From positions 89,541 to 153,540 of IMG/VR virus record IMGVR_UViG_3300029258_001212: a stretch of 64,000 nt of DNA. One strand, given 5' to 3'. Shown piece after piece: positions 3,509 to 17,548 of this stretch (its first letter is position 1; the number at the start of each line of letters is the position of its first letter). The notes below the pieces were generated by a model. It saw nothing but the letters and a program-made list of their open reading frames with translations. It was not told the DNA's origin and made no database searches. This DNA is from a virus. The position numbers were made by a program, and so were the translations under genes.

Positions 3509-4075
3509 ATGACGACGAAAGCATCGAAATCCACCCGTTCCAAAAAGGCTCCGGCCAAGAAGCGCACCACGAAGCGCAAGGCAGCGGCCAAGAAAAAGGC
3601 CGCCAAGGCCAAGGTGAAGCCCGCGCCCGAGCCCGCGGACAAGGATGAGCCCCATCCGCTCGCTGAGATCACACTCGAGGAGCGTGACTGGCTCATGAGC
3701 AAGTTCATGGTGGAGCGAGTCAGCGGCACCCAGGCGAAGCTCACGGCGGCCAAGCAGCAGCTCGAGATCCTCATGAGGGATCACATCGCTCAAAAGGCTG
3801 CCCAGAAAGCCCAGATCAACACCGCGGAGGCGGAGGTTCGCCAGGCGGACAACGAGATGAAGGTGTTTTTGGGGGAACTCGAGCACAAGCTCGGGATCAA
3901 CCTTCAGAATTACACCTGGCAGTCGGACGGCAAGATCATCTACATGGGTGACCTGGAAGAGATCGGCAATCAACAGCCGTCTCAACAGGCCAGCCAGCCC
4001 AAGAAAACCGAATCACCCGAACCTGGATCTGAGGATGAGGCGGAAGCTGAATTCCTGAACAGTCGGGTGGTCTAA
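3509..4075 (+). CDS. Lys/Ala-rich N-terminus plus coiled-coil protein
   Basis: 188 aa from ATG 3509, behind the ATTGGAGGCGAAG ribosome site that recurs in this phage. Residues 1-45 are a histone-H1-like Lys/Ala/Arg tail (KKAPAKKRTTKRKAAAKKKA). A helical coiled coil with HIAQKAAQKAQINTAEAEVR follows, and the C-terminus is acidic and Ser/Pro-rich. The basic tail could contact DNA or lipopolysaccharide. It precedes tail-fibre genes and has its own candidate promoter. No known family recognised. Confidence 0.5.
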   Translation: MTTKASKSTRSKKAPAKKRTTKRKAAAKKKAAKAKVKPAPEPADKDEPHPLAEITLEERDWLMSKFMVERVSGTQAKLTAAKQQLEILMRDHIAQKAAQKAQINTAEAEVRQADNEMKVFLGELEHKLGINLQNYTWQSDGKIIYMGDLEEIGNQQPSQQASQPKKTESPEPGSEDEAEAEFLNSRVV

Positions 4076-13092: not shown

Positions 13093-13839
13093 ATGGGTCG
13101 CTCTGCGATTGAGTGGACGGACTACTCATGGAGCCCTGTGACCGGGTGTTCGATGGTCTCCACGGGGTGCCGTAACTGCTACGCGAAACGGATGGCCGAG
13201 CAGTTCCAGCGGGACGGCAAGGCGCGCTACAGGTACGGGTTCAAGCCGACGATCCACCCGGATGTGCTCGAGGAGCCGCTGGGGTGGAAAACGAGTCGGC
13301 TCATCTTCGTGTGCAGCATGAGCGATCTGTTCCACGAGGACGTTCCTTTCGAGTTCTTGGAGCGCGTGTTCGCCATCATGCGGCGGACCCCGCGGCACAC
13401 CTACCAGGTGCTCACGAAGCGAGCGGAGCGGATGCGCGAGCTCGGCAACAAGATCGGCTGGCCGAGCAACATCTGGGCTGGCGTGACCGTGGAGCATCCC
13501 CGGTACGTGAAGCGGCGCATCCCCGAGCTCCTTGACACCGAGGCGCGGCTCCGATTCGTCTCCTTTGAGCCCCTGGTGGCCGAAATCGGCCCGTTCGATT
13601 TCACGGGCATCGACTGGGTGATCGTGGGTGGTGAACGGGGGAGCCGGGTGCGCCCCATGGACGAGGCATGGGCCCTGGACCTACTACGCCAGGCCCGCGC
13701 GGCCGGCGTGCCGTTCTTTTTCAAGCAACGCGGCGATGCGGCTGGGATCATGGGCTACCGGGACCAGCTCCTCGGGGGCAAGAAAATCCAGGAGCTCCCC
13801 GAGCAAGCTGGCAACCAACCCAGCCTGTTTGACCTGTGA
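13093..13839 (+). CDS. Phage Gp37/Gp68 (DUF5131) family protein
   Basis: 248 aa from ATG 13093 behind GATTGGAGGTACGTG. The N-terminus IEWTDYSWSPVTGC followed by STGCRNCYA is the hallmark of the DUF5131/Gp37-Gp68 family; Cys19, Cys26 and Cys29 form a C-X6-C-X2-C cluster like that of radical-SAM-type proteins. Other family motifs are IFVCSMSDLFHEDVPFEF, YQVLTKRAERM, WAGVTVEH and DWVIVGGERG. The molecular role is not established; members occur in phages and defence-associated loci. It has its own promoter and terminators on both sides, like a moron. Confidence 0.8.
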   Translation: MGRSAIEWTDYSWSPVTGCSMVSTGCRNCYAKRMAEQFQRDGKARYRYGFKPTIHPDVLEEPLGWKTSRLIFVCSMSDLFHEDVPFEFLERVFAIMRRTPRHTYQVLTKRAERMRELGNKIGWPSNIWAGVTVEHPRYVKRRIPELLDTEARLRFVSFEPLVAEIGPFDFTGIDWVIVGGERGSRVRPMDEAWALDLLRQARAAGVPFFFKQRGDAAGIMGYRDQLLGGKKIQELPEQAGNQPSLFDL

Positions 13840-13988: not shown

Positions 13989-14702
13989 ATGATTGAACGA
14001 TTGGAATCCTCCCCCCTCTGGTGCGCGTGGGACGTGGTGTGCTGTGACGCTGTGACGTTCCTCCGCCAGCTCCCGGACGCCTCGGTGGACCTGGCGATCA
14101 CGGACCCGCCCTACGAGTCCCTTGAGAAGCATCGCAAGAAAGGCACCACCACGCGCCTGAAGGTGTCCAAGGCGAGCTCCAACGCCTGGTTCAAGACGTT
14201 CCCCAACGCGCGGTTCCCAGAGCTCCTGGCAGAGCTCAGGCGCGTCCTGAAGCGCGACCGGCACTGCTACATCTTCGTGGACCAGGAGACCATGTTCGCC
14301 TTGCGCCCCGTGGCAGAGGCAGCCGGGTTCAAGTGGTGGAAGGCGCTGGTGTGGGACAAGGTGGCCATCGGGATGGGCTACCACTACCGGGCCCGCTTCG
14401 AGCACATCGCCTTCCTCGAGCTGGGCAGGCGCAAGCTCAACGATCTGGGCGTACCAGACGTTCTCCAGGTCAAGCGCGTCTGGCGGGGCATCCCCGCGGA
14501 GAAGCCCGTGGAGCTGATGGAGGTGCTGGTCCGACAGAGCACCAGGCCCGGTGAGCTGGTGGTGGACCCCTTCCTGGGCTCCGGGGCCTCGGGTCAGGCA
14601 GCCGTGAAGCTCGGGCGCCGGTTCCTTGGATCTGACCTGAATCCAGAATTAGTGCAAGAATCCACAGATCGGATTTGCGGCGCTTCTGCCATCCCCATGT
14701 AG
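13989..14702 (+). CDS. DNA methyltransferase (N6-adenine or N4-cytosine type)
   Basis: 237 aa from ATG 13989, behind TTTTTGGAGGCCACG. Catalytic motif IV is DPPY at residues 39-42 (VDLAITDPPYES); the AdoMet-binding motif I comes late (VVDPFLGSGASGQAAVKLG, around residue 190), followed by FLGSDLNPE. This IV-before-I order is that of beta-class amino-methyltransferases. No restriction partner is visible, so it is probably an orphan enzyme that protects phage DNA from host restriction or alters regulation. It lies between an attenuator-like terminator and a repeat array, outside the overlapping operons. Confidence 0.85.
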   Translation: MIERLESSPLWCAWDVVCCDAVTFLRQLPDASVDLAITDPPYESLEKHRKKGTTTRLKVSKASSNAWFKTFPNARFPELLAELRRVLKRDRHCYIFVDQETMFALRPVAEAAGFKWWKALVWDKVAIGMGYHYRARFEHIAFLELGRRKLNDLGVPDVLQVKRVWRGIPAEKPVELMEVLVRQSTRPGELVVDPFLGSGASGQAAVKLGRRFLGSDLNPELVQESTDRICGASAIPM

Positions 14703-14754: not shown

Positions 14755-14842
14755 GGAAGTTTTCTTCTACATGGTCAGGAAGTTTTCTTCTACATGGTCA
14801 GGAAGTTTTCTTCTACATGGTCAGGAAGTTTTCTTCCTGACC
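14755..14842 (+). repeat. 23-bp tandem repeats ending in a perfect hairpin
   Basis: Three identical 23-base units starting GGAAGTTTTCTTCTACATGG occupy 14755-14777, 14778-14800 and 14801-14823. A partial fourth at 14824 changes after CTTC. The last junction forms a perfect 10-bp stem GGTCAGGAAG (14819-14828), TTTT loop, CTTCCTGACC (14833-14842). Each unit also has an internal GAAG-TTTT-CTTC dyad. The array is AT-richer than its surroundings and lies in the 354-base gap 14703-15056, which has no convincing gene. A protein-binding array or terminator cluster are both possible. Confidence 0.75.
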
Positions 14843-15015: not shown

Positions 15016-15056
15016 TGGACTCCTGGCAAGCCTTTCTGACTCACGAGGAGAACCAA

Positions 15057-16466
15057 ATGGCGAAGATCGAGCTGACGTTAAAGCGGACATACCGCCCCCA
15101 CTGGGGGGTTCCGGAGGCAGTCCGGGAGTTCCTTCAAAATTGGTTGGACGGGGGAGACAAGGGGTTCACGAAGTCCATGCGCCGGGACGGCGACTGGTTG
15201 GTGCTCCGCAACGAAGAGGTGGTGCTTCCGCGTGAGGCGCTCCTCCTCGGGTTCACCACGAAGGCGACGGACGCGGATTCACGCGGCCAGTGGGGCGAGG
15301 GGCTCGACATGGGGCTCCTGGTGGCCACCCGGTCCGGGCTGGACGTGGTGGTCTACACGGGCGCGGAGCGGTGGGCCCCGAAGCTGGTCCAGAGCGCATC
15401 GTTCGCAGACGAGGTGCTCGCGGTGTTCACGCGCCAGGTGCGGGACCGCGCCGGCACGGAAGTCCACCTGCGGATCTCTGAGGAGGAATGGGCCGAGCTC
15501 CAGTGGCGCTTCCTCGAGCTCCAGCCGGCGGAGGAGACCACCCCGGGCAGCAGAGGCCAGATCATCTTCGATGCGGACAGGCGCGGGTGCGTGTACGTCA
15601 AGGGGATCTTCGTGTCCAAGATGGATGACCTACAGCACGGCTATGATTTCGAGCACGCGCATGTGGACCTGGATCGGATGCTGGTCAGTGGCTTCGATGT
15701 GCGCTGGGAGGCGGCCATGCTGTGGGAGACCGCCATCAGCCGGTCGCCCAGTCGCAACGGGCGCGCCGCGTGGGAAATGCTCAAGTCCGAGAAGCCGGAC
15801 GTGGCCGGCCTCGGAAGTCGCCTACAGCGCAACCCCAACCCCCAGGTGGCCAGGGCCGTGGCGGAGGTGTTTAAGGCGGAGCATGGCGCGGACGCTCTCC
15901 CGGCAGCCGACGACCACCAGATGCAGAAGATCGAACATCTAGGTCGCAAGCCCGTGCGGGTGTCCAGGTCCGCGGCAGATGTGCTCGAGGCCCATTACGG
16001 TCAGTTCCACGTGATGCTCAACAAGGTGGCCAAGGCGGAAAAGGTGGCGGTGGCCACGGCCGAGCTCACCGAGCTCGAGCGCCAGGTGGTGTTCCGAGGG
16101 GTGCGCCTGGTGGAGCTCGCCATGGACGGACTCAAGTGGAGCCGGGGCTACCAGGAGCTCCTCGCCGGGCTGGACGTGGTGGAGTACGCAGACGATCAGA
16201 TACTGGGTACGTGGGAGCGCGAATCGCGCCGCATTGGTGTGTCGCGCCGTGTGCTCAATGATGTGCCAGAGTTCCTGGGGACCTACCTCCACGAGCTGGC
16301 CCACGATTTGACCGAAGCTGTGGACGGCACCCGCATTCACATCAGCGTGGCTGAGTACCTGTGGGTGCGCTGCATGAGGGTGGTGCTGGAACGCTTCGGG
16401 ATGGAGTGGCTGGATGAGCGTGCAGACGATGGGGCCGAAGTGCGGGATCTGCGACAAGGCGGTTAG
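15057..16466 (+). CDS. GHKL-type ATPase fused to HExxH zinc-metallopeptidase-like domain
   Basis: 469 aa from ATG 15057 (ACGAGGAGAACCAA ribosome site); upstream codons from 15006 are not needed. The N-terminal half carries the Bergerat ATP-binding fold: REFLQNWLDG with Glu24, Asn28 and Asp31 (E-x3-N-x2-D box), then GQWGEGLDMGLLVATRSG with the Gly-rich lid motif at residues 78-90. The C-terminal third has the zinc motif LHELAHDLTEAVDGTRIH, with His412, Glu413, His416 and a possible third ligand at His428. GHKL proteins include Hsp90, MutL, gyrase and Topo VIB. Coupling ATP-driven dimerisation to a peptidase would be a switchable protease, but no substrate can be named. Confidence 0.65.
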   Translation: MAKIELTLKRTYRPHWGVPEAVREFLQNWLDGGDKGFTKSMRRDGDWLVLRNEEVVLPREALLLGFTTKATDADSRGQWGEGLDMGLLVATRSGLDVVVYTGAERWAPKLVQSASFADEVLAVFTRQVRDRAGTEVHLRISEEEWAELQWRFLELQPAEETTPGSRGQIIFDADRRGCVYVKGIFVSKMDDLQHGYDFEHAHVDLDRMLVSGFDVRWEAAMLWETAISRSPSRNGRAAWEMLKSEKPDVAGLGSRLQRNPNPQVARAVAEVFKAEHGADALPAADDHQMQKIEHLGRKPVRVSRSAADVLEAHYGQFHVMLNKVAKAEKVAVATAELTELERQVVFRGVRLVELAMDGLKWSRGYQELLAGLDVVEYADDQILGTWERESRRIGVSRRVLNDVPEFLGTYLHELAHDLTEAVDGTRIHISVAEYLWVRCMRVVLERFGMEWLDERADDGAEVRDLRQGG

Positions 16467-16635
16467 CATGGACAACTGCGTGGAGGTGATCGTGATCGCC
16501 CACCGTGGCCGGTCCGAGACTCCGCTCGGTTCGATGTACTACCACATGGAATGCTACCTGGACGAGCAAGATGGCGAAGCAACGCAAGCCCAGAAAGAAG
16601 CCCGGGAAGCCCGCGCGAAAAGCGGCCCCAGGTAA
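16414..16635 (+). CDS. Small zinc-finger protein
   Basis: 73 aa. CGICDKAV near the N-terminus (C-x2-C) and MYYHMECYLDE (H-x2-C) form a plausible four-ligand zinc site, like that of treble-clef fingers. It overlaps the end of the GHKL gene by about 50 bases and the following gene by 65 bases. ATG 16429 is an alternative start that keeps the whole finger. Function unknown; perhaps a nucleic-acid or protein adaptor. Confidence 0.5.
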   Translation: MSVQTMGPKCGICDKAVSMDNCVEVIVIAHRGRSETPLGSMYYHMECYLDEQDGEATQAQKEAREARAKSGPR

Positions 16636-17548
16636 CCGGAAGAAAGCCAAGCGGCCGTTTCGCCTGAAGCGCCGTAGGGCCGGCCCGGTAGACAAGCGGC
16701 CCAAGGGGTTCCTGGGGCCCAAGACGGAAGTGCCTCACCAGTGCAACCTGGCCGGGAGGTGCTGTTGGAACGGTTGGGTGAACCTCACGCCGTTCGATGT
16801 GTGGCGGATGGTCTCCGCCCGCAAGAGTCCGCTCCGCAAGTGGGGAGTGCGCTTCACCTGGGAGCTCTGGGAAAAAGGGCTGGTGACCATGGGGGTGGGC
16901 GAGCAGAAGCGGATGCCCCTTTGCATGATCATGCCCCAGCCGTACCGTGGCCAGGAGGGGGCGGCAGAGCATTGCCCCTTTGTCCAGTGGGATGACGACC
17001 AGGTGGGCGAGCCCGAGGCGCAAGCCCTCCTCGCTGGCAAGCTCCCCGGGCCCGGCTTCTGGACGGTGAACGGAAAGCCCAGGTTCACGTGTGGCCTGGG
17101 AGAGGTGGCGCCCATCTTGTGCCAGTTCTTCCCGATGGCGCGGGTGGGCAGCCCAGCCAAGGAGGGGCAGCCAGCCACGTGGCGATTCTCGTGCCCCCTC
17201 GAGACCTGCGAGGAGTGTATGCCGGAGTCGATCAAGCCGGCCGGTTTCACGGTGCAGAAGTGGCTCCGCAATCACGTGGTGCGCGAGTACCTCCGAGTGA
17301 GCCAGGAGCACCAGGAGGTGCTGTACGCGATCAAAGCGTTCCAGCTCCCAAACGTGGTGCGGAAGCGCCTGGCGGCCACGATGTTCAACTTCGATGGGAT
17401 GCTCAAGGACGCCGGGGTGCCAGAGGAGGAGATCCTCGCCAAGCGCCCCGAGAAGCCAGAGTACCTGATCATGGCGGCGAAGATGGCGATCATGGGGATG
17501 ATGCAGCCCCCGCCAGACGGAGTGGACGGTGGCGCATCGGCTGAGTGA
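16571..17548 (+). CDS. YkgJ-like CxxxCC cysteine-cluster protein
   Basis: 325 aa from ATG 16571. Residues 1-45 are strongly basic (KPRKKPGKPARKAAPGNRKK). The core then has CNLAGRCCWNGWVNLTPFDV, the signature of YkgJ/FliB-like cysteine-cluster proteins (C-x4-CC followed by a L-TP-D-V motif), and further cysteines in CGLGEVAPILCQFFP and CPLETCEEC. The family is thought to bind a metal cluster; flagellin N-methylase FliB belongs to it. A protein-modification role is therefore possible but unproven. The basic N-terminal extension may be a phage-specific addition. Confidence 0.65.
   Translation: MAKQRKPRKKPGKPARKAAPGNRKKAKRPFRLKRRRAGPVDKRPKGFLGPKTEVPHQCNLAGRCCWNGWVNLTPFDVWRMVSARKSPLRKWGVRFTWELWEKGLVTMGVGEQKRMPLCMIMPQPYRGQEGAAEHCPFVQWDDDQVGEPEAQALLAGKLPGPGFWTVNGKPRFTCGLGEVAPILCQFFPMARVGSPAKEGQPATWRFSCPLETCEECMPESIKPAGFTVQKWLRNHVVREYLRVSQEHQEVLYAIKAFQLPNVVRKRLAATMFNFDGMLKDAGVPEEEILAKRPEKPEYLIMAAKMAIMGMMQPPPDGVDGGASAE

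Follow-up and report, generated by a model that had tools for sequence, protein, structure and literature searches.

GHKL ATPases power DNA clamps, chaperones and kinases; a number of them are joined to nuclease-type effectors. Sacsin combines an Hsp90-like ATPase module with an effector-type domain, and so do the GHKL (paraMORC)-HEPN proteins; in both, the effector is a HEPN domain (PMC3710099). For phage RIIA, a GHKL ATPase part, a variable C-terminal domain and a role in counter-defence have been described (PMC7824862). Another phage family, PHROG_6077, bears the annotation 'histidine kinase-like ATPase' and includes gp176 of the Escherichia coli phage 4MG. On the protease side, the minigluzincins (proabylysin and selecase among them) have a minimal zincin fold and are stand-alone archaeal peptidases.

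The protein we describe here, P0001, is a 469-residue product encoded in a 153.5-kb phage record and touches on each of these systems. Its N-terminal 316 residues belong to the same family as PHROG_6077 (residues 1-316 against positions 1-318 of the 366 in the profile, E 2.8e-59), sharing the residues of motifs I and III and a motif II that likewise has no canonical Asp. The isolate members of PHROG_6077 that we checked are about 360-400 residues long and, unlike P0001, have no zincin. With RIIA it has in common an N-terminal GHKL module followed by another C-terminal part, but that part and the overall size differ. As in sacsin and the GHKL-HEPN proteins, an Hsp90-like module is coupled to an effector-type domain, here a zincin rather than a HEPN domain. 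The closest solved structures to the C-terminal half are those of minigluzincins, whereas the zincin of P0001 is fused to an ATPase and has a predicted His as its third ligand.

Proteins with the same layout already sit in the databases. Salinibacter WP_231847039 and Natrinema WP_226778665, both labelled 'ATP-binding protein', match P0001 in domain order, length and homology from end to end. These and other cellular or plasmid fusions are about 23-25% identical to P0001 and differ from it in having a canonical DxGxG motif and a likely Glu, not His, as third zinc ligand. CDS0173 of the Moorella phage MTATph1 is also a fusion, with motifs like those of the cellular proteins (DxGxG and HETLH...DCTREFE). 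In the literature we searched, which took in few subscription journals, we found no description of a GHKL domain joined to a zincin, HExxH or metallopeptidase domain.

The fusion gene and its surroundings

The window, by which we mean the whole 64,000-nucleotide stretch that was analysed, covers bases 89541-153540 of a virus record of 153,540 bp. Table 1 lists the features of the gene and its upstream region. A sister phage (IMG/VR 3300028920_000034) carries the same gene with 89% identity, and comparison of the two gives a dN/dS of 0.25 for the whole gene, 0.23 for the GHKL half and 0.30 for the zincin half; by this sequence measure, both halves are under purifying selection. That ratio, together with the homology that independent phage contigs show over the whole length (E down to 1e-70), rules out a chance motif.

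Table 1 Features of the GHKL-zincin locus, in window coordinates
Feature	Position	Strand	Basis
DUF5131 gene, upstream of fusion gene	13093-13839		Pfam E 1.7e-86
N6/N4 DNA methylase gene, upstream of fusion gene	13989-14702		Pfam E 4.4e-28
Tandem array of 23-bp repeats (3.6 copies), upstream of fusion gene	14755..14836	.	Array in same place in sister phage
Ribosome-binding site GAGGAG, 6 nt before ATG	15045..15050	+	Read from sequence; kept in sister phage
GHKL-zincin fusion gene, protein P0001, 469 aa	15057..16466	+	ORF and translation; full-length homologues; PHROG_6077 match
GHKL/Bergerat ATPase and transducer-like half, aa 1-302	15057..15962	+	AlphaFold, Foldseek
Motif I: E24 (predicted catalytic base), N28 (predicted Mg ligand), D31	15126..15149	+	Invariant, 24/24 phage fusions
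Motif II (G1 box), degenerate, N52-E54; Asn stands where Asp is canonical	15210..15218	+	24-sequence alignment
Motif III, ATP-lid glycines, G77xxGEG82	15285..15302	+	Invariant, 24/24 phage fusions
Zincin metallopeptidase domain, aa 303-454, core about 332-447	15963..16418	+	Domain modelled alone; Foldseek
HELAH: H412, E413, H416, predicted zinc ligands and catalytic Glu	16290..16304	+	Invariant, 24/24 phage fusions
H428, predicted third zinc ligand (HExxH-x11-H)	16338..16340	+	Invariant, 24/24; in helix after HExxH helix

The repeat array and the methyltransferase that had been placed upstream of the gene when it was first noticed are both real. On the far side of the fusion gene from the methylase lie genes that resemble replication genes. 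Immediately adjoining it, in the sister phage as well, is a gene for a cysteine-rich protein (16505-17548) with no Pfam or PHROG match. We found no sigma-70-like promoter near the fusion gene, no tRNA genes within the 64-kb window and, again in the window, no other defence genes adjoining the fusion gene.

The 23-bp repeats contain an inner palindrome, GAAG-TTTT-CTTC. In the array of the sister phage (L018, about 3697-3780) both arms are altered in every copy, to GACG...CGTC, while the flanks are well conserved, and in two copies AAAA replaces TTTT, which turns these into the reverse complement of the remaining two. The changes between the two phages look concerted, compensatory and inversion-like. 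Within IMG/VR, the sister phage was the only place besides the window where the repeat occurred in multiple copies.

Two folds in one chain

Searches with P0001 alone against Pfam, PADLOC and NCBIfam gave no call at a useful E-value, phmmer against the PDB returned nothing useful, and a family profile reached Hsp90 and zincins only weakly. The NCBIfam model of the sacsin N-terminal domain matched 22 of 24 family members, below its cut-off where this was checked. An AlphaFold2 model of the full-length protein, built from an alignment of 24 phage homologues, has a mean pLDDT of 88 and a pTM of 0.67. AlphaFold and Foldseek found a Bergerat fold in the N-terminal half and a zincin fold in the C-terminal half, so the original prediction of a GHKL ATPase fused to a HExxH metallopeptidase domain was right on both counts, and the identity of both domains is secure. 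A predicted structure with neither fold, the outcome named beforehand as fatal to the fusion idea, was not what the modelling gave.

In the GHKL half, pLDDT is mostly about 90, with lower blocks of 72 and 62 at residues 61-80, the lid region. The nearest PDB structures are Hsp90/TRAP1 (E 4.9e-8, probability 1.00), then GyrB and MutL. The motif I residues and the Gly-rich lid sit where they had been read from the sequence, and the alignment of 24 phage fusions, which are 24-89% identical to P0001, holds E24, N28, D31, K69, G77, G80, E81, G82, D206, R207, H412, E413, H416 and H428 invariant. By the usual marks of the GHKL family, the Bergerat fold, motif I and motif III are present and the DxGxG of motif II is absent: the position of its Asp is Asn in 22 of the fusions and Ser in the other two. 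The N-terminal half is, on the model, a divergent GHKL-related module with a Bergerat fold, which may bind and hydrolyze ATP. ATP use may be altered, since the Asp in question is the adenine-binding residue of motif II and is replaced in all of the phage fusions.

The zincin domain modelled on its own has a core pLDDT of 95-98, and DSSP gives the zincin order of elements: a helix, strands, the HExxH helix and then a helix bearing the third ligand. The top Foldseek matches in the PDB are all minigluzincins (proabylysin, selecase and jannalysin), with probabilities of 0.94-0.99 for the best four and modest E-values of 0.05-0.12. The HELAH motif had been reported with a possible third ligand. H412, E413 and H416 are as described, and the most likely candidate for that ligand is H428, because it is invariant in all 24 sequences. 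The three predicted zinc ligands expected of a zincin, H412, H416 and H428, are thus present and conserved.

Relatives in phages

In IMG/VR, scans with alignments turned up the whole fusion on about 25 diverse phage contigs and the GHKL part by itself on about 75, so that the zincin is missing from most phage relatives. Among isolated phages, 112 records match, over residues 1 to about 315 of P0001 only, and those we opened encode proteins of 360-400 residues without HExxH. The sole fusion found among isolated-phage records is MTATph1 CDS0173 (L218:5998-7338). Two further phage relatives, L040 and L042 (3998-5407), keep the zincin domain (E 2.3e-30) with its HExxH decayed to EEVSH, and these are candidate pseudoproteases. 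Their loss of the motif, and the absence of the zincin from most phage relatives, suggest that proteolysis is dispensable in some contexts.

When we compared neighbours within about 4 kb of 21 phage fusion loci by mutual similarity, no family was conserved; the fusion therefore appears to be a stand-alone accessory gene. An archaeal virus, Sulfolobales Beppu filamentous phage 1, supplied a fold match in BFVD: its protein A0A3Q8Q6V3, which carries the annotation 'structural protein', matches the model (E 1.5e-14). This points to a GHKL-type fold in a filamentous virus of archaea.

Relatives in cells and on plasmids

A GTDB scan gave about 35 bacterial and archaeal loci with a co-linear fusion, spread across many phyla, including Bacteroidota, Bacillota, Actinomycetota, Verrucomicrobiota, Armatimonadota, Thermoplasmata and Lokiarchaeota, and the fusion is also plasmid-borne. 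The pairing had been thought rare. Counted per genome it is indeed sporadic: three phyla, sampled at about 300 genomes each, yielded 0, 1 and 2 genomes with the cellular fusion beyond the centre genome, a patchy presence in some 0.3% of those sampled. It is nonetheless widespread over many phages and cellular phyla. The cellular members are mostly about 460-520 residues long and keep the DxGxG motif (D53xGxG is invariant in the aligned set). Their HExxH is followed by D-x-T-x-x-FE, the Glu of which is invariant in the aligned cellular set and is the likely third ligand. Phage and cellular fusions show full-length co-linear homology, at E 1e-12 and better for some, and an HMM of the phage zincin half retrieves cellular zincin halves (E 3e-12 to 5e-3).

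Two plasmid proteins are built on a larger scale. One from an Alkaliphilus plasmid (L013:3351-6665, 1104 residues) has three GHKL modules and then a zincin, and the other (L015:1911-4787, 959 residues) has tandem Hsp90-like modules ending in a zincin, a layout that in both resembles the sacsin repeats.

The company kept by the cellular genes is suggestive. Type I restriction genes, S and R, flank the Salinibacter member; the Natrinema member has Piwi, PLD and SIR2 genes close by, the Halorussus member type I restriction genes and a helicase, and the DL31 member SMC and HNH genes. The Euzebya and Streptomyces members adjoin DprA genes. The cellular GHKL-zincin genes L220, L221, L222 and L223 lie in apparent defence islands, among type I restriction, Piwi, SIR2, SMC and HNH genes. 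At 1e-10, the neighbours of chromosomal members (100 proteins) match 131 PADLOC profiles, among them OLD, GajA, AriA, DrmC and HEC-01, against 46 profiles for 100 proteins from arbitrary stretches, where those shown were mostly of the methyltransferase and restriction-enzyme kind. Because this control was small, rough and not genome-matched, and the profiles are redundant, the excess does no more than suggest a defence setting. Housekeeping genes also occur among the neighbours. Judged from these relatives, a defence or anti-defence role for the phage gene is plausible.

Evolutionary history

We built a tree of the GHKL half from 78 rows, the deep branches of which have modest support. The cellular fusions, with one member without HExxH inside them, stand apart from the phage group (SH-aLRT 99). 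On the phage side, 32 rows plus one decayed member form a GHKL-only clade, which separates from the fusions with support of 92; mapped on the tree, the GHKL-only label takes a minimum of 2 changes. L040 and L042 nest among the phage fusions. As fusions lie on both sides of the root, the simplest history is that the ancestor was fused and the zincin was lost once, giving the GHKL-only clade; this is probably what happened, though the conclusion hinges on where the tree is rooted. Apparently the two halves have been travelling together since before phage and cellular forms split. The MTATph1 fusion groups with the cellular clade, and its cellular-type motifs make an acquisition independent of the main phage clade probable.

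What the protein may do

Our best explanation, held tentatively and put a little short of an even chance, is that P0001 is a phage-encoded, ATP-controlled intracellular zinc protease used in conflict between phage and host. An ATP-gated protease would be the most economical mechanism, albeit an unproven one in which we infer ATP binding, proteolysis and a target from sequence and model. ATP binding would close a dimer clamp, as in Hsp90 and MutL. The closed clamp would then hold a substrate and switch on or position the zincin, which would cut a specific protein. More speculatively, that substrate might during infection be a protein of the host or of a rival element, and the gene a conflict factor (for counter-defence, takeover or exclusion) and not a part of the virion or of replication. 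Its part in the conflict between phage and host is a reasoned guess, and it is the altered motif II that warns most strongly against reading the protein as an ATP-gated protease.

That the zincin half might be a structural or regulatory metal-binding domain, the whole protein being a chaperone-like ATPase, would fit with the persistence of the domain in L040 and L042 after HExxH was lost and with its wholesale loss in the GHKL-only clade. The invariance of all four catalytic and ligand residues in the 24 phage fusions, and of HExxH and the Glu that follows it across the cellular alignment, makes this very improbable. A related thought is that the zincin is an interchangeable, non-essential attachment, and that the GHKL module with its variable C-terminal part protects the infected cell from exclusion or defence much as RIIA does. 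Once the family itself is set aside, RIIA proteins account for many of the top viral fold matches (E 1e-7 and weaker), and most phage relatives do without the zincin. T4 RIIA, however, is 725 residues long, and a profile comparison with it by hhalign reached a probability of 7.8% over 79 residues, so orthology was rejected; comparison of the fusion loci by mutual similarity showed no partner gene conserved within about 4 kb, and so no sign of an RIIB, and every catalytic zincin residue is conserved in the fusion clade. We think this reading rather unlikely. By analogy, RIIA-type counter-defence proteins would still be the closest functional analogue, while membership of RIIA itself is not supported.

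MutL, MORC and GyrB share the GHKL fold and act on DNA, which raises the thought of a protease in the manner of SprT, Wss1 or SPRTN that strips proteins off DNA as the phage replicates, the GHKL half serving as a DNA clamp. The gene does lie between a DNA methylase gene and replication-looking genes, and the zincin half has a weak likeness to SprT (E 0.041 for P0001; 8 of 24 members below 0.1) and to Wss1 (E 0.024). These Pfam matches fall under the curated cut-offs, however (12-14 bits against 25.6 for the SprT-like PF10263), the nearest folds are minigluzincins and not SprT, we identified no DNA-binding element, and most related phages have no zincin at all; we regard the idea as quite improbable. 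Or the phage may carry the gene as a defence or superinfection-exclusion factor against other phages and plasmids, like the cellular members that are presumed to act in defence. Their closeness to restriction, Piwi, SIR2 and OLD-like genes speaks for this, as does a match of the N-half core to the PADLOC profile TmtA (which we take to be the Tiamat system) in 14 of 24 members. That match, however, covers only about 65 residues of the Bergerat core in a profile of 1000-1600 and is lacking for P0001 itself, so we rejected membership of TmtA, and the fusion gene has no further defence genes identified beside it in the window. A phage-carried defence role seems to us distinctly unlikely.

A wider version of the ATP-controlled protease reading takes in the whole family. 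All members would be ATP-gated proteases of a previously undescribed kind, GHKL clamp plus zincin, with the cellular proteins as defence effectors and the phage proteins as counter-effectors, the phage branch differing by a His in place of Glu as third zinc ligand and an Asn in place of Asp in motif II. In this full form we consider it unlikely.

A family from archaea to phages

The GHKL-zincin fusion makes up a broad family that seems to have escaped description; many phages have it, and in bacteria and archaea its occurrence is patchy. If the coupling of its two halves is what it seems, it would be another route from ATP to proteolysis, besides the AAA+ proteases, running from archaea to phages. 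The fusion also gives PHROG_6077 as a whole a hypothesis on function; that phage family is common and includes phage 4MG, which is tractable because it grows on E. coli K-12.
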